39,602 nucleotides of DNA. It comes from SAR324 cluster bacterium (GTDB lineage Bacteria; SAR324; NAC60-12). Within the stretch, counting starts at the first letter, position 1. Each line of letters starts with the position of its first letter. This document shows, piece after piece, positions 939 to 21,130 of the stretch. Both the position numbers and the translations under genes were made by a program. The notes under the pieces are model-generated. The model was given only the letters and a program-made list of their open reading frames with translations, was not told the origin of the DNA and did not search any database. The DNA is taken from assembly GCA_029245725.1 (NCBI GenBank), contig JAQWOT010000219.1, positions 1 to 39,602 of the forward strand, in the 5' to 3' direction.

Positions 939-2339
939 TTACTCAACACCGGTCAACTGGCCAAGGGTAACCGGTTTGATGGGCGAACGCACCCGAAAAT
1001 AACCAACATCTGCCGGAGAAACCTGACGCTCATCGGCAATGATCTCAGAGACGGTCAACCCACACATCCTCGCCTGGCAGGGACCCATTCCACAACGCAC
1101 CATTGGCTTGACCCGATCAGGGCTCAGGGCACCCAAGCGCACGGCATCTCGGATCTCACGAACACGAACCTCTTCACAGCGACAGACCAGAGTCTCCTCA
1201 TTCTTTGGAACCAACCATGGATGTCTGGGTGGGAAGAGTGTGTCGAGGAAAGGACGAATCGCCAACTCTTGATCCTGTTTCTTCAACAGAGGAGCTGCGA
1301 GAGCAGTCTGTTGTGCCAGATCGATCTTACCTAGGGCTCTTGCGGTTTCTAATGCCGCGAGCCGACCAGTCAGTACTGAATTGGCTGAGCCACAGACACG
1401 ACCTGAATCTCCAGCCACAGCGACATTCTCAATACTGGTGTTACCCCATTGATCGAGTACGGGTTCCCAGTAGCGCTGCTTCTCGTACCAAGTGTGCTCA
1501 CAACCAAGCTGTCGGGTGATCTGAATGTTGGGAACCACACCATGATGCAGAAGCAGGAGGTCTGCAGGTAGCTCCTTCCAAGGAGCAGATCCTTGCTGGA
1601 ATCGTACTTTTTGCAGGTGTCCCTCGCCATCCGCCTCCAGCCCTGTGACTCCAAGGTGAACTTTCGCTCCGGAAGTAAACATTTGCCAGAGCATGGCGAT
1701 TCCCTTGCGGAGATACTCATGCCCTCGTAGAGCCTTGGGTAAGTATGGCAGCGCCTGAAACGGTGCGAGGTGTGGGTTTGTGTCCAGATAGGCCGCAATT
1801 TTGACTCCAGCATCCAGCAAGCGGCAGGCGATCAATAACAACAGGGGCCCGCTGCCCAGCAAGACAATTTCACCACGGGGCAACAAACCAGAACTTTTGT
1901 AGAGGACATCTGCTGCTGTGCAGGCCAATACACCGGGAAGCGTCCAGCCTGGAAAGGGCATCGGTCGCTCCATCGCACCGGTGGCAATCAGGATGCGTTG
2001 CGCGTGGCAGGTTTCTGAAGGTCCTCCATCCTGCCCAATGTGATATAGCGTTAGATCTGGATCAATCTGCCAGATTGATCGGCCAGGCCGATACTCGGCT
2101 CCAGATGCACGGAATCGCTGAGCCAGTTCAAAGGCTTCCTGATAATCAGCACCCAGCTTCTGGAATTCGTCTGGACGCTGTTCCTCCAGATCTTCGATGT
2201 TTCTGTAGATTTGCCCTCCAACAGCTGGTTGTTCATCCAGCACCAGTACATTCAGTCCATGTTGGCGGGCTTCGACAGCCGCAGCCATGCCCGCGGGCCC
2301 AGCTCCAATGATCACGTAATCATATTGTGGCAGGCTCAT
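939..2339 (-). CDS. FAD/NAD(P)-binding dehydrogenase alpha subunit with C-terminal BFD-like [2Fe-2S] domain (HcnB/OoxA/LhpE type)
   Basis: A 466-residue protein of the alpha-subunit family found in D-hydroxyproline dehydrogenase, opine oxidase (OoxA/NoxA) and HcnABC cyanide synthase. An FAD Rossmann motif GAGPAG lies at residues 12-17 and a second dinucleotide motif GSGPL at 162-166; VAVAGDSG is the usual FAD closing motif. The C-terminus carries cysteines C386, C388, C416 and C421 in a C-x-C ... C-x4-C pattern, as in BFD-like [2Fe-2S] domains. An upstream GTG at 2345 is possible. I chose the ATG at 2339 because AAAGGAG sits at good spacing and its ATGA overlaps the stop of the gamma subunit. 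It probably passes electrons between the beta-subunit flavin and the respiratory chain. The substrate cannot be read from this subunit. Confidence 0.9.
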   Translation of the reverse strand: MSLPQYDYVIIGAGPAGMAAAVEARQHGLNVLVLDEQPAVGGQIYRNIEDLEEQRPDEFQKLGADYQEAFELAQRFRASGAEYRPGRSIWQIDPDLTLYHIGQDGGPSETCHAQRILIATGAMERPMPFPGWTLPGVLACTAADVLYKSSGLLPRGEIVLLGSGPLLLLIACRLLDAGVKIAAYLDTNPHLAPFQALPYLPKALRGHEYLRKGIAMLWQMFTSGAKVHLGVTGLEADGEGHLQKVRFQQGSAPWKELPADLLLLHHGVVPNIQITRQLGCEHTWYEKQRYWEPVLDQWGNTSIENVAVAGDSGRVCGSANSVLTGRLAALETARALGKIDLAQQTALAAPLLKKQDQELAIRPFLDTLFPPRHPWLVPKNEETLVCRCEEVRVREIRDAVRLGALSPDRVKPMVRCGMGPCQARMCGLTVSEIIADERQVSPADVGYFRVRSPIKPVTLGQLTGVE

Positions 2340-2626
2340 GCGCACTCTCCTTTCTTCAATTGACGCTGGATGTTCATACCCTCCCGAACTTGGATCATGC
2401 AGGATTGTTGATTGGGCTGGCCGTCGATCTCAAGCAGGCAGTCAAAACAGATCCCCATCATGCAGAAGGCTGCCCTGGTTTCTCCGCTAACCAACGACTT
2501 TCGTAGCATCAGGTGGCCTTCACCCATTAGGGCTGCAGCCACAGTCTGTGCTGGAGCAACCTGGTAAGTCTTTTCTTCAAAGGTGATTTGGATTGTCTTG
2601 GCAACATTAGGCGGCGACTGGAACAT
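2336..2626 (-). CDS. Small [2Fe-2S] ferredoxin-like gamma subunit of the flavin dehydrogenase (HcnA/LhpF type)
   Basis: A 96-residue protein with a plant-type [2Fe-2S] pattern: C55-x4-C60-x2-C63 and C76 (AAFCMMGICFDCLLEIDG, then QQSC). This is the size and motif of the small gamma subunits of heterotrimeric amine and imino acid dehydrogenases, which wire two flavin subunits together. It lies between the beta and alpha subunit genes, overlapping the first by about 20 nt and the second by ATGA. A TTG at 2653 would extend the N-terminus. I prefer the ATG at 2626 because GAGG lies just upstream and the extra residues look non-conserved. Confidence 0.88.
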   Translation of the reverse strand: MFQSPPNVAKTIQITFEEKTYQVAPAQTVAAALMGEGHLMLRKSLVSGETRAAFCMMGICFDCLLEIDGQPNQQSCMIQVREGMNIQRQLKKGECA

Positions 2627-3734
2627 CAAACCTCGCAGAATCAAAAACTTCAAACATCGGTTGGGTTTGACCGGACAGAATCCAGTCGACTAGATAGGAA
2701 CTATGAATCGAAGCCAGACTGACTCCACTGTGACTGGTTACGGCAAATGCTCCGGGGCAACTTTGTGACTCTACATAAACTGGTTTTTGGTCAGGTGTGA
2801 GCACTCGCAGGGAGCCCCAGCTGCGGATCAATTGTAGGTTTTTCAGGGTTGGAAAGACTGCCAGGGCATGGTTGGCAATGTCTTGTAGGACACCGTTGGT
2901 AGTACCGAGGTCATAACCAACTTCTTCGTGGGAAGCTCCGAACATGAAGCTCCCATCGGCATTTTGGCGGATGCGTCCCGTGGCGAAGGGGAAAAGGTGA
3001 TCCGTTTTTTCTGTCACGAGTACCTGACCCCGTTGAGGTCGTACGGGCACCTTGATGCCCACCAGAGCAGACAACTTGGTGGTAGCCAAGCCGCTGGCGA
3101 TCACGAGTTTTCTGGTTGAGAATCTTGTTGTGTTGGTCTGAATCAGGAAACCATCGTTGTTGTACTCAATCGTCTGTACATCTGCACTTGGGAAGAACTG
3201 TCCCTTGAGTTGAGTGAAAGCTTGGTGCAGTGCTCGTAACAAATGGAGAGGATTGGCAAAGCCATCGTGGGGACAGAAGGAAGCTCCAGAAACCATTGGT
3301 CCCAAGGGCAACTTGGGGATCATGCTCTGCAGCTCATCCCGACTGATCATCTCACAGTTATAGGTGCCTGTCAGCGACTGGGTTCGCATCTCTTCGAGGA
3401 ACTTACTTCGCTTGCTGTATTCTTCCTCTCCCACACAAATTTCGAAGCCTCCAGTTCGATGATAGTACTGGGGAATCCCGGTCTGGTCCTCGAGCTTTTC
3501 CGCAAAGGTTGACCACAGTTCTGTGGCTTCCTGGCTCCACTGCGCATAACGTGGCATACCGTGTCCCTTGCCCTGTAACCAGACCAGTCCAAAATTTCCT
3601 CGAGAAGCTGTCAACTGAAAATCCTCACGATCCAGCATGACGACTGAGGCTTTTTGCTCTGCCAGTCCATAGGCTACAGCGGCGCCAATCACACCGCCTC
3701 CGATTACTACAACATCAGCTTTCATCGTATTCAT
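2607..3734 (-). CDS. FAD-dependent oxidoreductase, DAO family, catalytic beta subunit (sarcosine oxidase beta/HcnC/OoxB type)
   Basis: A 375-residue DAO-fold flavoprotein. The N-terminal FAD motif VVVIGGGVIGAAVAYGLA lies at about residues 8-25. The C-terminal part has the family-typical GAFAVTSHSGVSLASIHSS stretch that closes over the flavin. In this family the subunit oxidises the C-N bond of a secondary amine or D-amino acid; HcnC, OoxB and the D-hydroxyproline dehydrogenase beta subunit are relatives. With the gamma and alpha genes that follow, it makes a complete dehydrogenase trimer. Its ATG overlaps the stop of the upstream ATPase gene as ATGA (3731-3734), so it is translationally coupled to the transporter. 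The substrate is unknown. The neighbouring epimerase-like enzyme suggests that the D- or epimerised form of an imported compound is oxidised here. Confidence 0.9.
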   Translation of the reverse strand: MNTMKADVVVIGGGVIGAAVAYGLAEQKASVVMLDREDFQLTASRGNFGLVWLQGKGHGMPRYAQWSQEATELWSTFAEKLEDQTGIPQYYHRTGGFEICVGEEEYSKRSKFLEEMRTQSLTGTYNCEMISRDELQSMIPKLPLGPMVSGASFCPHDGFANPLHLLRALHQAFTQLKGQFFPSADVQTIEYNNDGFLIQTNTTRFSTRKLVIASGLATTKLSALVGIKVPVRPQRGQVLVTEKTDHLFPFATGRIRQNADGSFMFGASHEEVGYDLGTTNGVLQDIANHALAVFPTLKNLQLIRSWGSLRVLTPDQKPVYVESQSCPGAFAVTSHSGVSLASIHSSYLVDWILSGQTQPMFEVFDSARFDVPVAA

Positions 3735-14276: not shown

Positions 14277-15527
14277 ATGTCAACTCGCCAAACTGTAGAC
14301 GTCAAAAGGCTTCGTCACCTTGATAACCTGCTGATCAACACCATCGGGAAACCGGGTCAACTACCTGGTGCACAAGTATTGGTCTGGCGTCGAGGAGATC
14401 TATCCTATTTTCGTTGGGCGGGCTACCGAGATCTCGAGCGAGGATTGCCGATTGAGGAGGATACGATCTTTCGGATCTATTCGATGACAAAACCAATTGT
14501 TAGTGTGGCTTTGTTGATGCTGTTGGAAGAGGGACGCTTTCGTTTGGACACACCAGCATCGGAGTTTATTCCGAAGTTTGCTGACTTGGAGGTTTTTGCT
14601 GGAGTAGATGAACAGACAGGTGAAATGCAAACGGAAGAACGCAAGAGGTCCGTAACCATCCACCAGTTGTTGACCCATACCTCTGGCTTGACCTACGAGA
14701 TGCATGCGGAACAGCATCCGGTTGCCAAGCTCTACAAGCAATCTTCTGCTGAAAGGGCCCCTTTGAGTCTTGAGGGGATGGTCGACCATTTGTTGAATTT
14801 TCCATTAGCCTACCAACCGGGAACCCGCTGGCACTACAGTGTGTCCACTGATGTTTGTGCCCGTCTTGTCGAGATCATCTCGGGTCAACCTATCGATCGC
14901 TTCTTGCAAGAGCGTATTTTTGAGCCTCTAGGGATGCGAGATACTGGTTATCACGTGCCTCCTCAGGAACTCTCTCGTTTGGCAGAGCTATATTCTGTTG
15001 CCGATTGGTTTGATCCTAACCTGTCACCGGAGACTCTGGAAAAAGCTTGGCAAAGTGGTGCCAAACTCAAACTGCTGAGCGGATTTGAATCAGAGATTTA
15101 CAAGGCACCACACAACTGCCTGCGTGGTGGACATGGGCTGGTTTCTACAGCTTTGGACTATCTGAAATTTGCCCGTATGTTGCTGCAATATGGTAAGTGG
15201 GAGGGAGAGCGTCTATTGAGTCACAAGACGGTTGAACTGATGCGAGTTAATCATCTCTCGGCAGAGCTATTCCCACTGGAAATTCGCAATAATCCTCTCA
15301 AGGAAGAAGGCTGGGGACTAGGGGTGTCGGTCAATATAGACCCCGCACAAAGTATGTGTTTGGGTAGCCAAGGAAGTTATGGTTGGGCAGGCCTGGCCTC
15401 CACCAAGTTTCTGATTGATTCTCAAGAGGAATTGATCCTGATTCAGATGGGTCAGCTGATTCCTCCTCCAGAGCATTTATTTTTTCAGTATCTTAAGAAT
15501 GTAGTCTATCAAGCACTGACCCCATAA
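14277..15527 (+). CDS. Serine hydrolase of the beta-lactamase/family VIII esterase fold
   Basis: A 416-residue class C beta-lactamase-related hydrolase. The nucleophile motif is S69-M-T-K72, the second motif Y187-S-V (WHYSVSTDV), and a late glycine/histidine motif reads RGGHGL. These are typical of EstB-like family VIII esterases and of D-aminopeptidase-like or polymer-hydrolysing relatives, not true antibiotic beta-lactamases. No clear signal peptide is seen, so it is probably cytosolic. It starts a run of five plus-strand genes but is followed by 118 nt containing a candidate promoter, so it may be transcribed separately. AAGG precedes the ATG. The ester or amide substrate is unknown. Confidence 0.88.
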   Translation: MSTRQTVDVKRLRHLDNLLINTIGKPGQLPGAQVLVWRRGDLSYFRWAGYRDLERGLPIEEDTIFRIYSMTKPIVSVALLMLLEEGRFRLDTPASEFIPKFADLEVFAGVDEQTGEMQTEERKRSVTIHQLLTHTSGLTYEMHAEQHPVAKLYKQSSAERAPLSLEGMVDHLLNFPLAYQPGTRWHYSVSTDVCARLVEIISGQPIDRFLQERIFEPLGMRDTGYHVPPQELSRLAELYSVADWFDPNLSPETLEKAWQSGAKLKLLSGFESEIYKAPHNCLRGGHGLVSTALDYLKFARMLLQYGKWEGERLLSHKTVELMRVNHLSAELFPLEIRNNPLKEEGWGLGVSVNIDPAQSMCLGSQGSYGWAGLASTKFLIDSQEELILIQMGQLIPPPEHLFFQYLKNVVYQALTP

Positions 15528-15645: not shown

Positions 15646-17958
15646 ATGACTGAACTCGCCACAACCCCCAATCCTACTAAATCCAAAACTGGAAGTTCCC
15701 TCCGTCGGGTGGAAGATGCGCACCTGATTCTGGGAAAGGGACGCTTCACGGACAACCGTCCAGCAGTAGGCCAGTTACACTTACACTTCATCCGTTCTTA
15801 TCTGGCACATGGACGAATTGCCAGCATAGATAAGGAAGAGGCACTGCAAAGTGAAGGAGTTATCGCAATCTACACAGCTGAAGATTTGTTGGCTGATGGG
15901 GTCAAACCTCTACCGATTGCAGGAGGATATAAGCGACCGGATGGTCAACCGATGGCTCAGCCAGAATGGCATGCACTTGCCAATGGAGTTGTACGCTATG
16001 TAGGAGAAGCAGTCGTAGCTGTTGTCGCGGAATCCCAAGCTCAAGCCGTGGATGCTGCACAGTTGGTTGAAATTGAATATGACGAATTACTTGCCGCAGG
16101 CAATCTTGCGGCTGCTAGTGCACCGGGTGCTCCTCTGGTTTGGGAGGATGCTCCGGATAACATTGTTGCTCAGAAAACGTTTGGAGATGAAGCTACTGTG
16201 GCTGAGGCCTTTGCCAAAGCGCACCATGTCACCAAGTTAGAGCTGACCAACAACAGGTTGGTTGGCAATGCAATGGAGCCTCGTACTGTCATTTGTGAAT
16301 ACGACAAAAATTCTGGTAGAAGAACCATCCGTATTGGGCATCAGCATCCTCACGGACTACTTGGAACCCTTCCTGGGATTTTCGGTGAGAAAGCAGAGAA
16401 TTTCCATGTAATCGTGGAGGATATTGGTGGAGGATTTGGTGTCAAAGCGATGACCTACCCTGAAGATGTCGTGGTCATTTATGCCTCTGGCAAGCTAAAG
16501 AGCAATATCCGTTGGCGGGGGAGCCGCACTGAAGATTTCCAAGCAACTGGGCACGGGCGTGATCAAATCAATCATGCTGAGTTGGCCTGTAGCGCCGATG
16601 GCAAGATCCTCGGAATGCGTCTGTATAATCTTGGAAACCTCGGGGCGTTCCCAACAGGTGCTGGCGCAGCGATTCCTCTGGAAGTAGGCCCAAAAGTTTC
16701 CACCTCGGTTTATCACATTCCTGCCTATTATCTGGTTACCGATGCCTATGCCACTCACACCGCACCACTGGCTGCCTACCGCGGAGCTGGAAGACCAGAA
16801 GCCGTTTACCTGATGGAGCGGTTGATGGAAAAAGCTGCTGATGAGCTTGGAGTAGATCCGATTGAGATGCGTCGCAAGAACTTCATTCCTGTCGATGCGA
16901 TGCCCTACACCAATCCTCTGGGGGAGGTCTATGACAGCGGTGACTTCAATACGGTGCTCGATCTGATCCTTGAGCAGGCAGACTGGAACGGTTTTGCAGG
17001 CCGCAAAGCAGAATCAGCCAAGCAAGGCAAACTGCGAGGTAGGGGTCTTTCCTGCTACATCGAGTGGACCGGAGCAGTCTGGTCTGAAGATGTAACTATG
17101 GAAGCTTCGGGAGCTGGAAAATTCACCTGTTATTCAGGCACCCAGGCTATGGGTCAAGGGATTGAGACTGCTTACTTACAGTTACTTTCTGAAAAGATGG
17201 ACCTACCGCTTGAGCAACTCAACGTGGTGCAAGGTGACACTGACGTGGTCAAGGGCAACGGAAGCTACGGTTCTCGCTCACTCTATATCGGGGGCTCAGC
17301 GATTCATGAGGGAGTATTGAAGTTCATGGAGGCTGCCAAAAAGTTGGCTGCTGAGAACTTGGAAGCTTCTCCAGAAGACCTCGTCTATCAGGAGGGACGC
17401 TTTGAGGTAGTTGGTACCAACGTAGGCATTGGACTCTTCGAGTTGGCACTTCAGCAACCGGAGCAGAAGATTGAGGTTTCTTCCAGCACAACAATCCCTG
17501 TGGCAAGTTGGCCAAACGGTTCCCAAGTAGCGGAAGTAGAGGTTGATCCTGAAACGGGGATGGTTAAGATGGTGAGTCTGACAGCGGTAGATGACGTGGG
17601 TAATGCTGTCAATCCAATGCTTGTCGCAGGACAGGTTCATGGTGGGATGGCCCAGTCCGTTGGACAGGCTTTGTTGGAGCGGACAGTTTATGACGACAGT
17701 GGACAATTCATCAATTCGACTTTCCTTGATTATGCAATGCCTCGAGCTGATGACATGCCGCCTATTCAGACCGACTTGTTCCGTGAGCAACCATGCCGCA
17801 CTAATCCATTAGGCTCCAAGGGTGTTGGTGAGTTAGGGACCGTCGGAGCCACGCCAGCTGTGGTCAATGCGGTACTGGACGCTCTTCGTGAACACGGCAT
17901 CAAACACCTGGAAATGCCTCTGACACCTCAGAGTGTCTGGGCTGCATTGAACAGCTAA
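15646..17958 (+). CDS. Molybdenum hydroxylase large subunit, form II CoxL-like (xanthine dehydrogenase/aldehyde oxidase family)
   Basis: A 770-residue catalytic subunit binding the molybdopterin cofactor. The active-site loop AYRGAGR (residues 377-383) is the form II signature of CoxL-like proteins; true form I CO dehydrogenase has AYRCSFR. The catalytic glutamate is E729 in KGVGELGTVGATPAV, and the cofactor motif GTQAMGQGIETAYLQL is present. Family members hydroxylate aldehydes or N-heterocycles using water. They normally need a FAD subunit (CoxM) and a 2x[2Fe-2S] subunit (CoxS), usually encoded next door. Neither is encoded anywhere in this window. GGAG lies 7 nt before the ATG. CO oxidation is unlikely; the substrate is unknown. 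Confidence 0.92.
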   Translation: MTELATTPNPTKSKTGSSLRRVEDAHLILGKGRFTDNRPAVGQLHLHFIRSYLAHGRIASIDKEEALQSEGVIAIYTAEDLLADGVKPLPIAGGYKRPDGQPMAQPEWHALANGVVRYVGEAVVAVVAESQAQAVDAAQLVEIEYDELLAAGNLAAASAPGAPLVWEDAPDNIVAQKTFGDEATVAEAFAKAHHVTKLELTNNRLVGNAMEPRTVICEYDKNSGRRTIRIGHQHPHGLLGTLPGIFGEKAENFHVIVEDIGGGFGVKAMTYPEDVVVIYASGKLKSNIRWRGSRTEDFQATGHGRDQINHAELACSADGKILGMRLYNLGNLGAFPTGAGAAIPLEVGPKVSTSVYHIPAYYLVTDAYATHTAPLAAYRGAGRPEAVYLMERLMEKAADELGVDPIEMRRKNFIPVDAMPYTNPLGEVYDSGDFNTVLDLILEQADWNGFAGRKAESAKQGKLRGRGLSCYIEWTGAVWSEDVTMEASGAGKFTCYSGTQAMGQGIETAYLQLLSEKMDLPLEQLNVVQGDTDVVKGNGSYGSRSLYIGGSAIHEGVLKFMEAAKKLAAENLEASPEDLVYQEGRFEVVGTNVGIGLFELALQQPEQKIEVSSSTTIPVASWPNGSQVAEVEVDPETGMVKMVSLTAVDDVGNAVNPMLVAGQVHGGMAQSVGQALLERTVYDDSGQFINSTFLDYAMPRADDMPPIQTDLFREQPCRTNPLGSKGVGELGTVGATPAVVNAVLDALREHGIKHLEMPLTPQSVWAALNS

Positions 17959-18179
17959 TTTGCTTAGAAAACTTTGGAGTCTTCCTGTGTTTATGTGGGA
18001 AGGCTTCAACTAAAGCCTGCCGGGTCCGTTCTTAGCATTTTGAAGATTGATTTCTCTCGCCCCACTCGTCCTTCAAAGATAAACAGAATGATTGAATAAA
18101 TTGTTTGAGACGCTCCTAAACTATCTATTGTGGGAAGGTTTAGAGAACGATTGGTTTTCCCAGACTTCAGGATATGGTC

Positions 18180-19166
18180 ATGACAGCGACCACAATTAAA
18201 CAAACAGAAACTCAGGTAGACTGGAAGCCTGCTATCCTTGTTAAAGGTGAGACACTCTACAACTGGCCCTTCCAGCCCAAGGTCGCTCTGAAGTGGTTGA
18301 AAAATTACTTGTTCGGACCAATTGCGCTGATTCACGCTGGCTTGGGGCTATTCACTTGGTTCTTCCTGACTCCTAGCCTGGTTACTATGCAGACCTTAGC
18401 CTGGGATTGGGTCGCTCTGATTTACCTACGTAATGTCGGGTTACTTTTCCTGGTGACAGGTAGCACTCATTTCTGGCTTTATGTGCGTAAGGGGCAAGGA
18501 TCTGATTTCCAATTCAACAAGCAGGGTCTGCGAGAAAATGACCCTCGCTTCTGGTTTAGCAATCAGACCTGGGAAAACATGTTCTTCGGGATTGTCAGTG
18601 GTTGCGGTATCTGGACGTTGTACGAGGTGTTGACCTACTGGATGTTTGCCAATGGTTATGTGTTGTTTCCAGTGGAGTGGCTGGAATCACCGATTTACAT
18701 CGCTTTCCTATTTCTGCTGATTCCTCACATCCGGGCTCATCACTTCTACTTCACTCATCGGCTGACGCATTGGAAGCCTCTTTATAATGCTGCCCACTAT
18801 CTGCATCATAAAAATACCAACACGGGCCCATGGTCAGGTTTGTCGATGCACCCGATCGAGCATCTGCTCTATCTCTCAGGGGTGTTTCTGCATTGGATGA
18901 TTCCCTCACATCCGATTCATGCCTGCTTTCATCTGCTCCATGCTGGCATCAGTCCGAATTGGGGACACACGGGCTTCAACAGGATTCAGGTAAATAAATT
19001 TAGAATAGATACAAACTACTTCCACTACCTGCATCATCGTTATTTTGAATGTAACTACGGCAACCTTGATATGCCTTGGGACCACCTGTTTGGTACTTTC
19101 CATGATGGCTCACAGGAATCCAAGAAACGAATGGGCGCTAGGTTGCGAGAACAACGAAAGCGTTGA
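18180..19166 (+). CDS. Di-iron membrane hydroxylase, fatty acid hydroxylase/sterol desaturase superfamily
   Basis: A 328-residue membrane enzyme with the histidine clusters of the superfamily: HRLTH (193-197), HYLHH (206-210), MHPIEH near 223-228, and HYLHH (282-286). Several hydrophobic helices span about residues 45-100, 135-183 and 230-255. Such enzymes hydroxylate or desaturate sterols, fatty acids, carotenoids or ether lipids using O2. The ATG at 18180 has AGGA at 7-nt spacing; the ATG at 18174 is too close to it. It is followed 14 nt later by the tandem SnoaL gene, then the PhyH gene, suggesting one transcription unit for modifying a lipid-like or terpenoid compound. Confidence 0.9.
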   Translation: MTATTIKQTETQVDWKPAILVKGETLYNWPFQPKVALKWLKNYLFGPIALIHAGLGLFTWFFLTPSLVTMQTLAWDWVALIYLRNVGLLFLVTGSTHFWLYVRKGQGSDFQFNKQGLRENDPRFWFSNQTWENMFFGIVSGCGIWTLYEVLTYWMFANGYVLFPVEWLESPIYIAFLFLLIPHIRAHHFYFTHRLTHWKPLYNAAHYLHHKNTNTGPWSGLSMHPIEHLLYLSGVFLHWMIPSHPIHACFHLLHAGISPNWGHTGFNRIQVNKFRIDTNYFHYLHHRYFECNYGNLDMPWDHLFGTFHDGSQESKKRMGARLREQRKR

Positions 19167-19180
19167 GAGAGAGTCAGTTT

Positions 19181-20329
19181 ATGAAGCAATCCAATTTTCC
19201 AGTGAGGCAGGGACGATCTCATTCCCATGACGCTCTTCCATTGCAACGCTCAGATATGCCAATGGATTATCTTGTTTCATTGGAAAATTACACTTCTGGT
19301 CGCACTATTCGAATACCTGAAAATCTTGGTCCCACCCAGTCATTGCAAGGTTTTGATTCAACATACCGAAACATCATTGACTACATTGTTCGAATCACCT
19401 ATCGAATTTGGGAAACCAATGACCGTGAGGTTGAGTACATTGGTGAATGCTATTCACCAGACAGCCAGGTTTTCGATGACTACGGACTTCAACTTGGTAA
19501 CCAAAAGATCATTGCTGACACTCACCATACAACAGCGGCCTTCCCTGATATTATTCTTGATGCTGAAGAAGTAATTTGGGCAGGAAATGACCAAATTGGG
19601 TTTCACACCTCACACCTTACACGCATCAGTGGTACGAATGCCGGATCAAGCAGATACGGTAACGCCACTGGCAAAACAGTGAATTTTTTCGTGATTGCGA
19701 ACTGCGTTGCTCTCCAGAACGATATTTTTCTGGAACACGTGCTTTACAACACCTCTGCAATGCTACAACAGCTTGGGATCGATCCCTGGGAAGAGGCCAC
19801 CAGATTGGCGAAAAATCCTCCTGCCGGTTGGCCTCGTTCTCAGGAGAATTGGGATCAACTGCGTTCAGCGACTTCTCCAGCAATTCCAATTTCACAAGCA
19901 GAGCCAATTTCGGGATTTGATCCTGACGCCTTTACTCGTGAAATTCACGATAATGTTTGGAATGGGGATCAGTCAGTAATTACAAACTCATATGCCCAGA
20001 ACCTGTTCTTCGAGGGCGCGACTGAGCGTACCTTTTCTGGAAGCACCGCTTATCGAAGTTATGTGAACGAGTTGCGTAGTGTTTTTCCCGACTTACAGTT
20101 GCAAGTTGATGAGGTCTATTGGATGGGCAATGAACTCGATGGGTTTCTGATTTCAACACGTTGGAGCGCAGAGGGTACTCATTTGGGTGAAGGGGTTTAT
20201 CGGAGTCCTACCGGTAAGACTTGTCAGCTTTGGGGAATTACTCAATGGCAGGTCCTAAACGGTGTCATCCAGAAAGAGTGGCAACTGTTCAATGAGCTAG
20301 ATCTGATGATGCAAATCTTAGCAGCCTAG
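19181..20329 (+). CDS. Tandem SnoaL/NTF2-like domain protein
   Basis: A 382-residue protein made of two SnoaL-like domains, roughly residues 50-180 and 225-375. Parallel segments are readable: an early helix; a strand (YSPDSQVFDDYGL / YAQNLFFEGAT); AAFPDIILDAEEVIWAGND in the first and VFPDLQLQVDEVYWMGNE in the second; then TGKTVNFF / TGKTCQLWG. SnoaL-like proteins are polyketide cyclases, hydrolases, isomerases or ligand carriers. The ATG at 19181 is preceded by GAGAG; a TTG at 19163 would overlap the upstream gene. It sits between the hydroxylase and the dioxygenase, so it may act on an intermediate between them. Specific function is unknown. Confidence 0.8.
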   Translation: MKQSNFPVRQGRSHSHDALPLQRSDMPMDYLVSLENYTSGRTIRIPENLGPTQSLQGFDSTYRNIIDYIVRITYRIWETNDREVEYIGECYSPDSQVFDDYGLQLGNQKIIADTHHTTAAFPDIILDAEEVIWAGNDQIGFHTSHLTRISGTNAGSSRYGNATGKTVNFFVIANCVALQNDIFLEHVLYNTSAMLQQLGIDPWEEATRLAKNPPAGWPRSQENWDQLRSATSPAIPISQAEPISGFDPDAFTREIHDNVWNGDQSVITNSYAQNLFFEGATERTFSGSTAYRSYVNELRSVFPDLQLQVDEVYWMGNELDGFLISTRWSAEGTHLGEGVYRSPTGKTCQLWGITQWQVLNGVIQKEWQLFNELDLMMQILAA

Positions 20330-20347: not shown

Positions 20348-21130
20348 ATGATTACTGAAGCTCAACGCTTTAAATTCCAGCAGCAGGGATATGTCGTTCT
20401 AGAGAAAATCCTGAGTACATCTGTCCTCAGTTGGCTGCAGGGTCGATGTGATGAAGCTGTGGACTGGAAAGCCAGTGGGATGCGCTCCTTAGGAATTGAG
20501 GAAGAGGGAATCAATCTGCTCGGCAAACGCTATTTTGTCAGTGGTTACAGGCAACAGAATTCAGAACTCGATCGCTTTCTCTTTGGCGATGTAATGGCTG
20601 AGATTTCAAAGGGATTGCTTGGCGAGACGGTTTATCTTCACAATGAACAATTTGTGGTCAAAGGGCAGGATCAGCGTAGCCGCTTTGCCTGGCATCAGGA
20701 TAGTGGCTACTCGGTCTATCGAGGAGGTGCCGAACGGCATCAGCCCTACCTGACCTGTTGGATTGCTCTGGATGACATGTCTGCGCAAAATGGAACAATT
20801 TCTGTGCTTTCCTTCGATGAATTCGGAGAGGGTAAGCTGGTAGAGCACTGGTGGGATGAGGATGAAGCCGCGATGGTTGGTTACTCTGGAGAAAAATCTG
20901 GCTCGTTGATGGCAGTACCAGCTGGTTCGATTGTTTGCTTCTCCAGTTTTACAATGCACCGCAGCGGAATGAATCAAACAGAGCGGTTACGCCGGAGCTA
21001 CATTGTTCAGTATGCTTCAACAGCCTTTGGTTTCCAAATTGATCCCCAAAGACGCTACGCTCCCTCGGGAGGTGTTGATTTCATCAAAGCCAGTCAGCGG
21101 ATGATTCAACCGGAACCGTTACCCAATTGA
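20348..21130 (+). CDS. Phytanoyl-CoA dioxygenase (PhyH) family Fe(II)/2-oxoglutarate oxygenase
   Basis: A 260-residue dioxygenase. The iron ligands are H116-x-D118 (FAWHQDSGY) and H204 (FTMHRSGMN), with an arginine around 215-216 (TERLRRSY) to bind 2-oxoglutarate. The N-terminus has the PhyH opener FQQQGYVVLEKIL. Bacterial members hydroxylate many small molecules, including ectoine, phosphonates and secondary metabolites, so acyl-CoA specificity is not implied. It begins 18 nt after the tandem SnoaL gene and is very probably cotranscribed. It ends the oxidative run and is followed by a strong hairpin. Confidence 0.9.
   Translation: MITEAQRFKFQQQGYVVLEKILSTSVLSWLQGRCDEAVDWKASGMRSLGIEEEGINLLGKRYFVSGYRQQNSELDRFLFGDVMAEISKGLLGETVYLHNEQFVVKGQDQRSRFAWHQDSGYSVYRGGAERHQPYLTCWIALDDMSAQNGTISVLSFDEFGEGKLVEHWWDEDEAAMVGYSGEKSGSLMAVPAGSIVCFSSFTMHRSGMNQTERLRRSYIVQYASTAFGFQIDPQRRYAPSGGVDFIKASQRMIQPEPLPN

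Follow-up and report, generated by a model that had tools for sequence, protein, structure and literature searches.

Which partners, if any, take up the electrons of a molybdenum hydroxylase large subunit whose gene stands alone? This question is raised by a gene, hereafter SOLO, from a SAR324 cluster bacterium. The window, i.e. the whole stretch of DNA analysed (39,602 nucleotides), is the entire contig C219 of genome G000 (4.4 Mb, 99.3% complete, 407 contigs). A preliminary description had reported that the AYRGAGR loop and catalytic glutamate of SOLO are intact and that the window lacks genes for the FAD subunit (CoxM, M) and the 2x[2Fe-2S] subunit (CoxS, S). It had proposed either subunits borrowed from another locus or a different electron acceptor.

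An intact large subunit without local partners

SOLO is an open gene that starts with ATG and encodes 770 amino acids with zero internal stops (Table 1). Three Pfam domains (Ald_Xan_dh_C, MoCoBD_1 and MoCoBD_2) each score far over the cut-off. The cofactor-loop and catalytic residues of the xanthine oxidase family are also kept (E729, Q233, GGGFG and MGQG), Gln233 being presumably the counterpart of CoxL Gln240. By these domains and conserved residues, SOLO is a large subunit (L) of the xanthine-oxidase family of molybdenum enzymes. Its loop and glutamate are indeed intact and are unchanged in the 12 SAR324 rows compared, with the sole exception of one Y378F. Fer2 and Fer2_2 domains are absent from the chain (Pfam), hence SOLO is not of the fused Fe-S and Mo (MOP) type. 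Furthermore, a structure model built from 32 family sequences (mean pLDDT 87.7) has CO dehydrogenase large subunits as its best solved fold matches (TM-score ~0.9), which points to a CoxL fold.

Within the genus, SOLO has two full-length orthologues at 97% identity and a partial one in G002; the full-length orthologues of genera g3 and g7 are 49-56% identical. Since the identity within the genus is 97% and dN/dS is only ~0.02 against the G004 orthologue of the same genus (0.05 for genus g3), SOLO is not a chance ORF, and it is under strong purifying selection. A non-functional relic left after operon loss would account for the missing local partners, and form II coxL relics do exist (in G013, and with stops in the form II L of G025). 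However, such a relic is very improbable, being contradicted by these dN/dS values, by the open frame and by the invariant active-site residues.

The reported absence of CoxS and CoxM from the window also holds: genome-wide Fer2_2 and FAD_binding_5 searches matched other contigs only, and a tblastn comparison of the window with four CoxS/CoxM proteins from SAR324 found neither. It has to be qualified by a redox cluster upstream of SOLO (939-3734, minus strand), which comprises a Fer2_4 protein, an FAD/BFD-domain protein and a DAO-family FAD enzyme. This cluster belongs to a different family from cox and resembles the HcnABC/opine-dehydrogenase types. A peptide-type ABC transporter adjoins it. 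The fragmentation of G000 (407 contigs) would leave room for an assembly artefact, with partners lying past the contig end. However, SOLO is 15.6 kb and 21.6 kb away from the contig ends, the G004 orthologue is located on a 118-kb contig without S or M, and complete Bradyrhizobium chromosomes are alike, so that an artefact is barely credible.

The neighbourhoods of SOLO vary by genus in SAR324 and therefore provide no conserved local partner. In genus g7, the neighbours of the orthologue are HMG-CoA-lyase-like, SAF and UxaA/galactarate-dehydratase-type proteins (recognized with Pfam in G015 and by similarity in G011). Elsewhere in g7, ORFs of the same size stand at these positions; none of the three neighbours was found beside the proteobacterial relatives. 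A fused electron carrier or another redox partner beside SOLO was considered and rejected, the g7 neighbours not being electron carriers.

Table 1. Features of the window and decayed coxL of G013
Feature	Position	Strand	Evidence or remark
SOLO, orphan CoxL-like molybdenum hydroxylase large subunit	15646..17958	+	ORF, domains, orthologues, dN/dS, structure model
Gln233 codon	16342..16344	+	Invariant across all rows compared
AYRGAGR active-site loop, form II signature, residues 377-383	16774..16794	+	Motif in SOLO translation
Glu729 (GVGE) codon, catalytic-type glutamate	17830..17832	+	Invariant across all rows compared
Serine beta-lactamase/esterase-family gene, upstream	14277..15527	+	Pfam; kept in own genus (G004, partly G005)
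Fatty-acid-hydroxylase-family membrane protein, downstream	18174..19166	+	Pfam; kept in G004 and G002
SnoaL-domain protein	19163..20329	+	Pfam; kept in G004 and G002
PhyH-family dioxygenase-like protein	20348..21130	+	Pfam; kept in G004 and G002
Fer2_4 [2Fe-2S] protein	2336-2653	-	~12-14.7 kb upstream of SOLO, part of non-cox redox cluster
FAD proteins	939-2345 and 2607-3734	-	Same non-cox redox cluster
Decayed form II coxL, G013	L182:5850-6046		Between intact coxS and coxM

Partner inventory of the genome and conservation of the orphan state

In G000, MoCoBD_2 matches seven large subunits: SOLO, the form I and form II enzymes of contig C156, and those of C397, C343, C120 and C141. Each of the five Fer2_2 matches is located near a large subunit of its own contig. 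The three FAD_binding_5 matches are on C156 (form II), on C343 and at the edge of C88; the last one was assigned to the form I set since the end of C88 overlaps the start of C156. As all five CoxS-type domains are already paired with their own L, G000 has no spare dedicated S-M pair, and the Fer2_2 and FAD_binding_5 searches revealed no unpaired S or M in this 99.3%-complete genome. Candidate partners of the right class are encoded by the form II coxS (11494) and coxM (14391) of C156, and the form II CoxL of G000 is ~43% identical to SOLO. The form I cox operon and its form II counterpart are arranged in tandem on C156 (L017), separated by a SufS-like gene and two coxD-coxE sets. In addition, C397 encodes a second large subunit (L019:4903-7197; 764 amino acids, loop AYRAPTA) with no S on the contig; its neighbours, named by eye, are alcohol dehydrogenase-like and mandelate-racemase-like genes.

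The orphan state, whose conservation in relatives the preliminary description had proposed to examine, is conserved. Fer2_2 and FAD_binding_5 gave no match on the 15 contigs that carry the orphan or its pieces in 13 SAR324 genomes, some of these contigs spanning only 3.5-10 kb. The wider family was defined as the best 80 of 539 relatives, 4 from SAR324 and 76 proteobacterial. Adjacent S and M are missing in 61 of the 76 proteobacterial relatives (49 with neither S nor M in fetched flanks of at least 3 kb on both sides, and 12 with shorter flanks); both are adjacent in seven, S lies directly upstream in seven, and S-M is found ~6 kb away in one. Moreover, the orphan state occurs in complete chromosomes (Bradyrhizobium) too. 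The loop is invariant among the 80 relatives, an invariance partly built in since RGAGRPE was among the search patterns.

The trees group the SAR324 orphans in a single clade (support 99-100) within a fully supported clade that includes the proteobacterial relatives, and separate them with full support from the six operonic form II CoxL rows of SAR324. Members with adjacent S/M, nested among members without them, reveal the ordinary partners available to the orphan family. One relative, L086, titled Bordetella parapertussis (metagenome assembly), groups with uncultured betaproteobacterial relatives, so that its name may mislead. Nine more large subunits, L174-L181 (from G058, G064 and G065), fall outside the orphan clade and have no CoxS/CoxM in the fetched stretch, suggesting several orphan lineages per genome. 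The 12 Fer2_2 matches of Belnapia (G065) are all close to a large-subunit match, and several of its large subunits are without S.

Residue conservation was compared over 165 reference columns, chosen for an identity of 95% or more among 21 S-partnered large subunits; OG_L039 (G006:C80, no CoxS match on the contig) and the distant-S row L090 were left out. Retention at 90% or more was found for 130/165 columns in SAR324 orphans (mean 0.90) and 142/165 in proteobacterial orphans (mean 0.94), with a single near-fixed difference between orphans and S-partnered large subunits. The lowest values, 0.84 and 0.91, respectively, were obtained for residues 151-410, which are part of the N-terminal domain reported to embrace the small subunit KdhS in KdhL (PMC8305194). 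The comparison thus gives no apparent sign of interface loss, a weak test because conservation falls mainly on cofactor and core positions.

Operons for S and M that lack a large subunit

In Bradyrhizobium, Afipia and Tardiphaga, an unpaired coxS is found in a coxG-coxS-coxM-coxD-coxE-coxF arrangement, and the 13 kb fetched contain no large subunit gene. The best NCBIfam matches of these L-less S and M in Bradyrhizobium are the gamma and beta models of the glyceraldehyde enzyme. CoxS of this class is present in all 49 orphan-bearing genomes searched; the 28 of Bradyrhizobium type, without exception, have a copy 88-99% identical to the query, flanked by coxG and coxM and lacking an accompanying L. 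At the two other loci fetched from this search (L230 and L231), S has its own L.

A profile of 75 genomes of the Bradyrhizobium family was obtained with a query joining the CoxS of an L-less operon to a piece of the orphan. Among the matches listed, the orphan occurs in 17 genomes, all with a CoxS of at least 82% identity, while a CoxS of at least 80% occurs without the orphan in 4 and neither occurs in 54 (17/17 versus 4/58). The S-M operons of orphan-bearing genomes are all without L (17/17; 16 newly fetched and that of G059), versus 9 of the 24 from orphan-less genomes, the other 15 being S-L-M. The best CoxS was less than 80% identical in 44 profile genomes, 20 of which were fetched. Fisher's test gives p = 2e-13 for the profile and p = 4e-5 for the presence or absence of L in the operon; both values ignore phylogeny, related genomes not being independent. 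Since 9 of the 24 operons from orphan-less genomes also lack L, the orphan need not be the sole partner of such operons. Loci L253, L256, L261, L262 and L269 are L-less coxS-coxM operons from genomes with no detected orphan of the SOLO clade.

In SAR324, one genome of genus g3 (G013, a draft, 87% complete, that contains ambiguous bases) carries adjacent form II coxS and coxM, both open frames. The ~170 bp gap between them aligns to residues 1-23 of the G007 coxL at one end and to residues 762-784 at the other. This coxL remnant contains stops, one of them ten codons in, and its start-side score was matched by 0 of 300 shuffles. Against G007, S and M have dN/dS values of 0.025 and 0.057, part of this substitution record being older than the coxL loss. 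The large subunits found in G013 at E <= 1e-100 are a form I enzyme and the SOLO orthologue only, the latter being the only form-II-like L. In G025, a form II large subunit (G025:C2:60026-62383) has three in-frame stops (two TGA and one TAA) and is adjoined by coxS and coxM.

Among the 31 genomes of SAR324 family f1, the form II module is present in 13 of 14 with the orphan versus 8 of 17 without it, three genomes being scored as positive from contig edges (G018 from L and M at the end of a contig, G020 and G023 from a form II L where a contig begins). The one-sided Fisher value is 0.008 for the 31 genomes, 0.048 for those at least 80% complete (n=24) and 0.15, not significant, for those at least 85% complete (n=20). 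The sole exception in f1 is G026 (87% complete), in which the orphan is present and form II S or M was not found.

This exception, together with the 61 of 76 proteobacterial rows lacking S/M nearby and the SAR324 contigs devoid of them, would fit an enzyme that passes its electrons straight to another carrier or catalyses a redox-neutral reaction. However, relatives with adjacent S or S and M, L-less S-M operons accompanying the orphan and the G013 remnant point to the use of S/M. Furthermore, the conserved neighbours of SOLO include no alternative redox protein, being of lyase/dehydratase type (g7) or of fatty-acid-hydroxylase, SnoaL and PhyH type (own genus). Such a partner-free enzyme is therefore quite unlikely, and the different acceptor proposed initially drew no positive support.

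The preliminary description had also considered that a dedicated coxS/coxM pair elsewhere would make this a simple split locus. One dedicated S-M pair per orphan, with no sharing, agrees with the L-less coxSM operons of the Bradyrhizobium-type genomes and with G013, but is contradicted in G000, which has no unpaired S or M unless the ~0.7% of missing sequence hides a second pair. Moreover, B. barranii G058 has at least three large subunits without nearby S for one L-less S-M pair found. A strict split locus is thus unlikely as a general explanation. Since every CoxS of G000 has its own L, the SAR324 case would rather correspond to sharing with the form II operon.

A catalytic subunit probably served in trans

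Altogether, we consider that SOLO is probably (about 0.7) an alternative catalytic subunit that docks on an S-M module of form II encoded at another locus. This trans-partnering is supported, at the level of genome comparison, by the 28/28 L-less operons, the 17/17 versus 4/58 profile and the coxL decay in G013. Of the two initial proposals, borrowing from another locus is the better supported. SOLO would act as an active-site-intact large (molybdenum cytosine dinucleotide) subunit, CoxS and CoxM being supplied by another locus. The likeliest such partners in SAR324 would be those encoded by the form II coxSLM operon of C156, which normally serve the CoxL of that operon. SOLO would take the place of this CoxL in the trimer and hydroxylate its own substrate. 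Electrons would then pass from Mo to the two [2Fe-2S] clusters in turn, to FAD and to quinone, perhaps via CoxG, which is encoded on C156 with the form II operon. According to a 2026 survey, Cox electrons reach the quinone pool, and CoxG was proposed as the deliverer (PMC13240472). The module would have its own operon in Bradyrhizobium-type genomes and would be shared with form II CoxL in most SAR324 genomes, G013, whose form II operon has lost its own L, being the exception. As the form II operon of G000 has an intact L, nothing in this genome forces sharing.

The substrate can be approached from the neighbours of the relatives. Of the 32 Nitrobacteraceae-type loci, 28 have a DHDPS-family aldolase/dehydratase-type gene upstream, at a distance of 73 bp to 6.3 kb; it was seen at no other locus among the 80. 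Together with a glyceraldehyde dehydrogenase alpha model as best NCBIfam match of SOLO, this gene is suggestive of an aldehyde arising in a sugar-acid pathway; the neighbourhood of SOLO in its own genus lends no support to it. For SOLO itself, an aldehyde substrate is a guess.

More tentatively, and with slightly less than even chances in our opinion, SOLO may be one part of a plug-in system in SAR324 and in Alpha- and Betaproteobacteria, in which one (CoxG-)CoxS-CoxM exit module would serve several scattered and interchangeable large subunits, each with its own substrate. If so, one added gene could widen the substrate range, coxL counts would not equal enzyme counts, and annotation based on adjacency would miss such enzymes. 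A 2026 marine survey attributed lone coxL genes (form I set) to incomplete genomes (PMC13240472). In the present analysis, form-II-like large subunits standing alone are conserved and occur in complete chromosomes, alongside L-less S-M operons. Listings and abstracts of the open-access literature searched for orphan, split or shared coxL/coxS/coxM gave no description of shared S-M modules.

Among known systems, Kdh, involved in nicotine degradation, has an L gene located apart from its M and S genes. This enzyme (PDB 7dqx) belongs to the same class as SOLO; its L, M and S are reported to be separate polypeptides with Fe-S clusters buried between subunits (PMC8305194). The Sulfolobus glyceraldehyde oxidoreductase (NF041018; PDB 4zoh) is the best NCBIfam match of SOLO, but the score is under the curated cut-off (570 versus 790 bits), and SOLO therefore earns no specific enzyme name. 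Form I CO dehydrogenases (PDB 1ffu, 8uem and 1n60) provide the closest solved folds, with 30-34% identity. However, SOLO has AYRGAGR in place of the form I loop AYXCSFR, lies outside any coxMSL operon and scores 431.6 bits against a cut-off of 991 with the form I model (TIGR02416, NCBIfam). AYRGAGR marks form II, whose role two 2026 papers describe as unresolved (PMC13203968; PMC13240472). SOLO resembles form II CoxL by this loop, by the catalytic glutamate, by its predicted fold and by its identity to the form II CoxL of G000, but differs by lacking adjoining coxS and coxM, and hence the coxS-coxL-coxM operon, and by forming a separate, fully supported clade.
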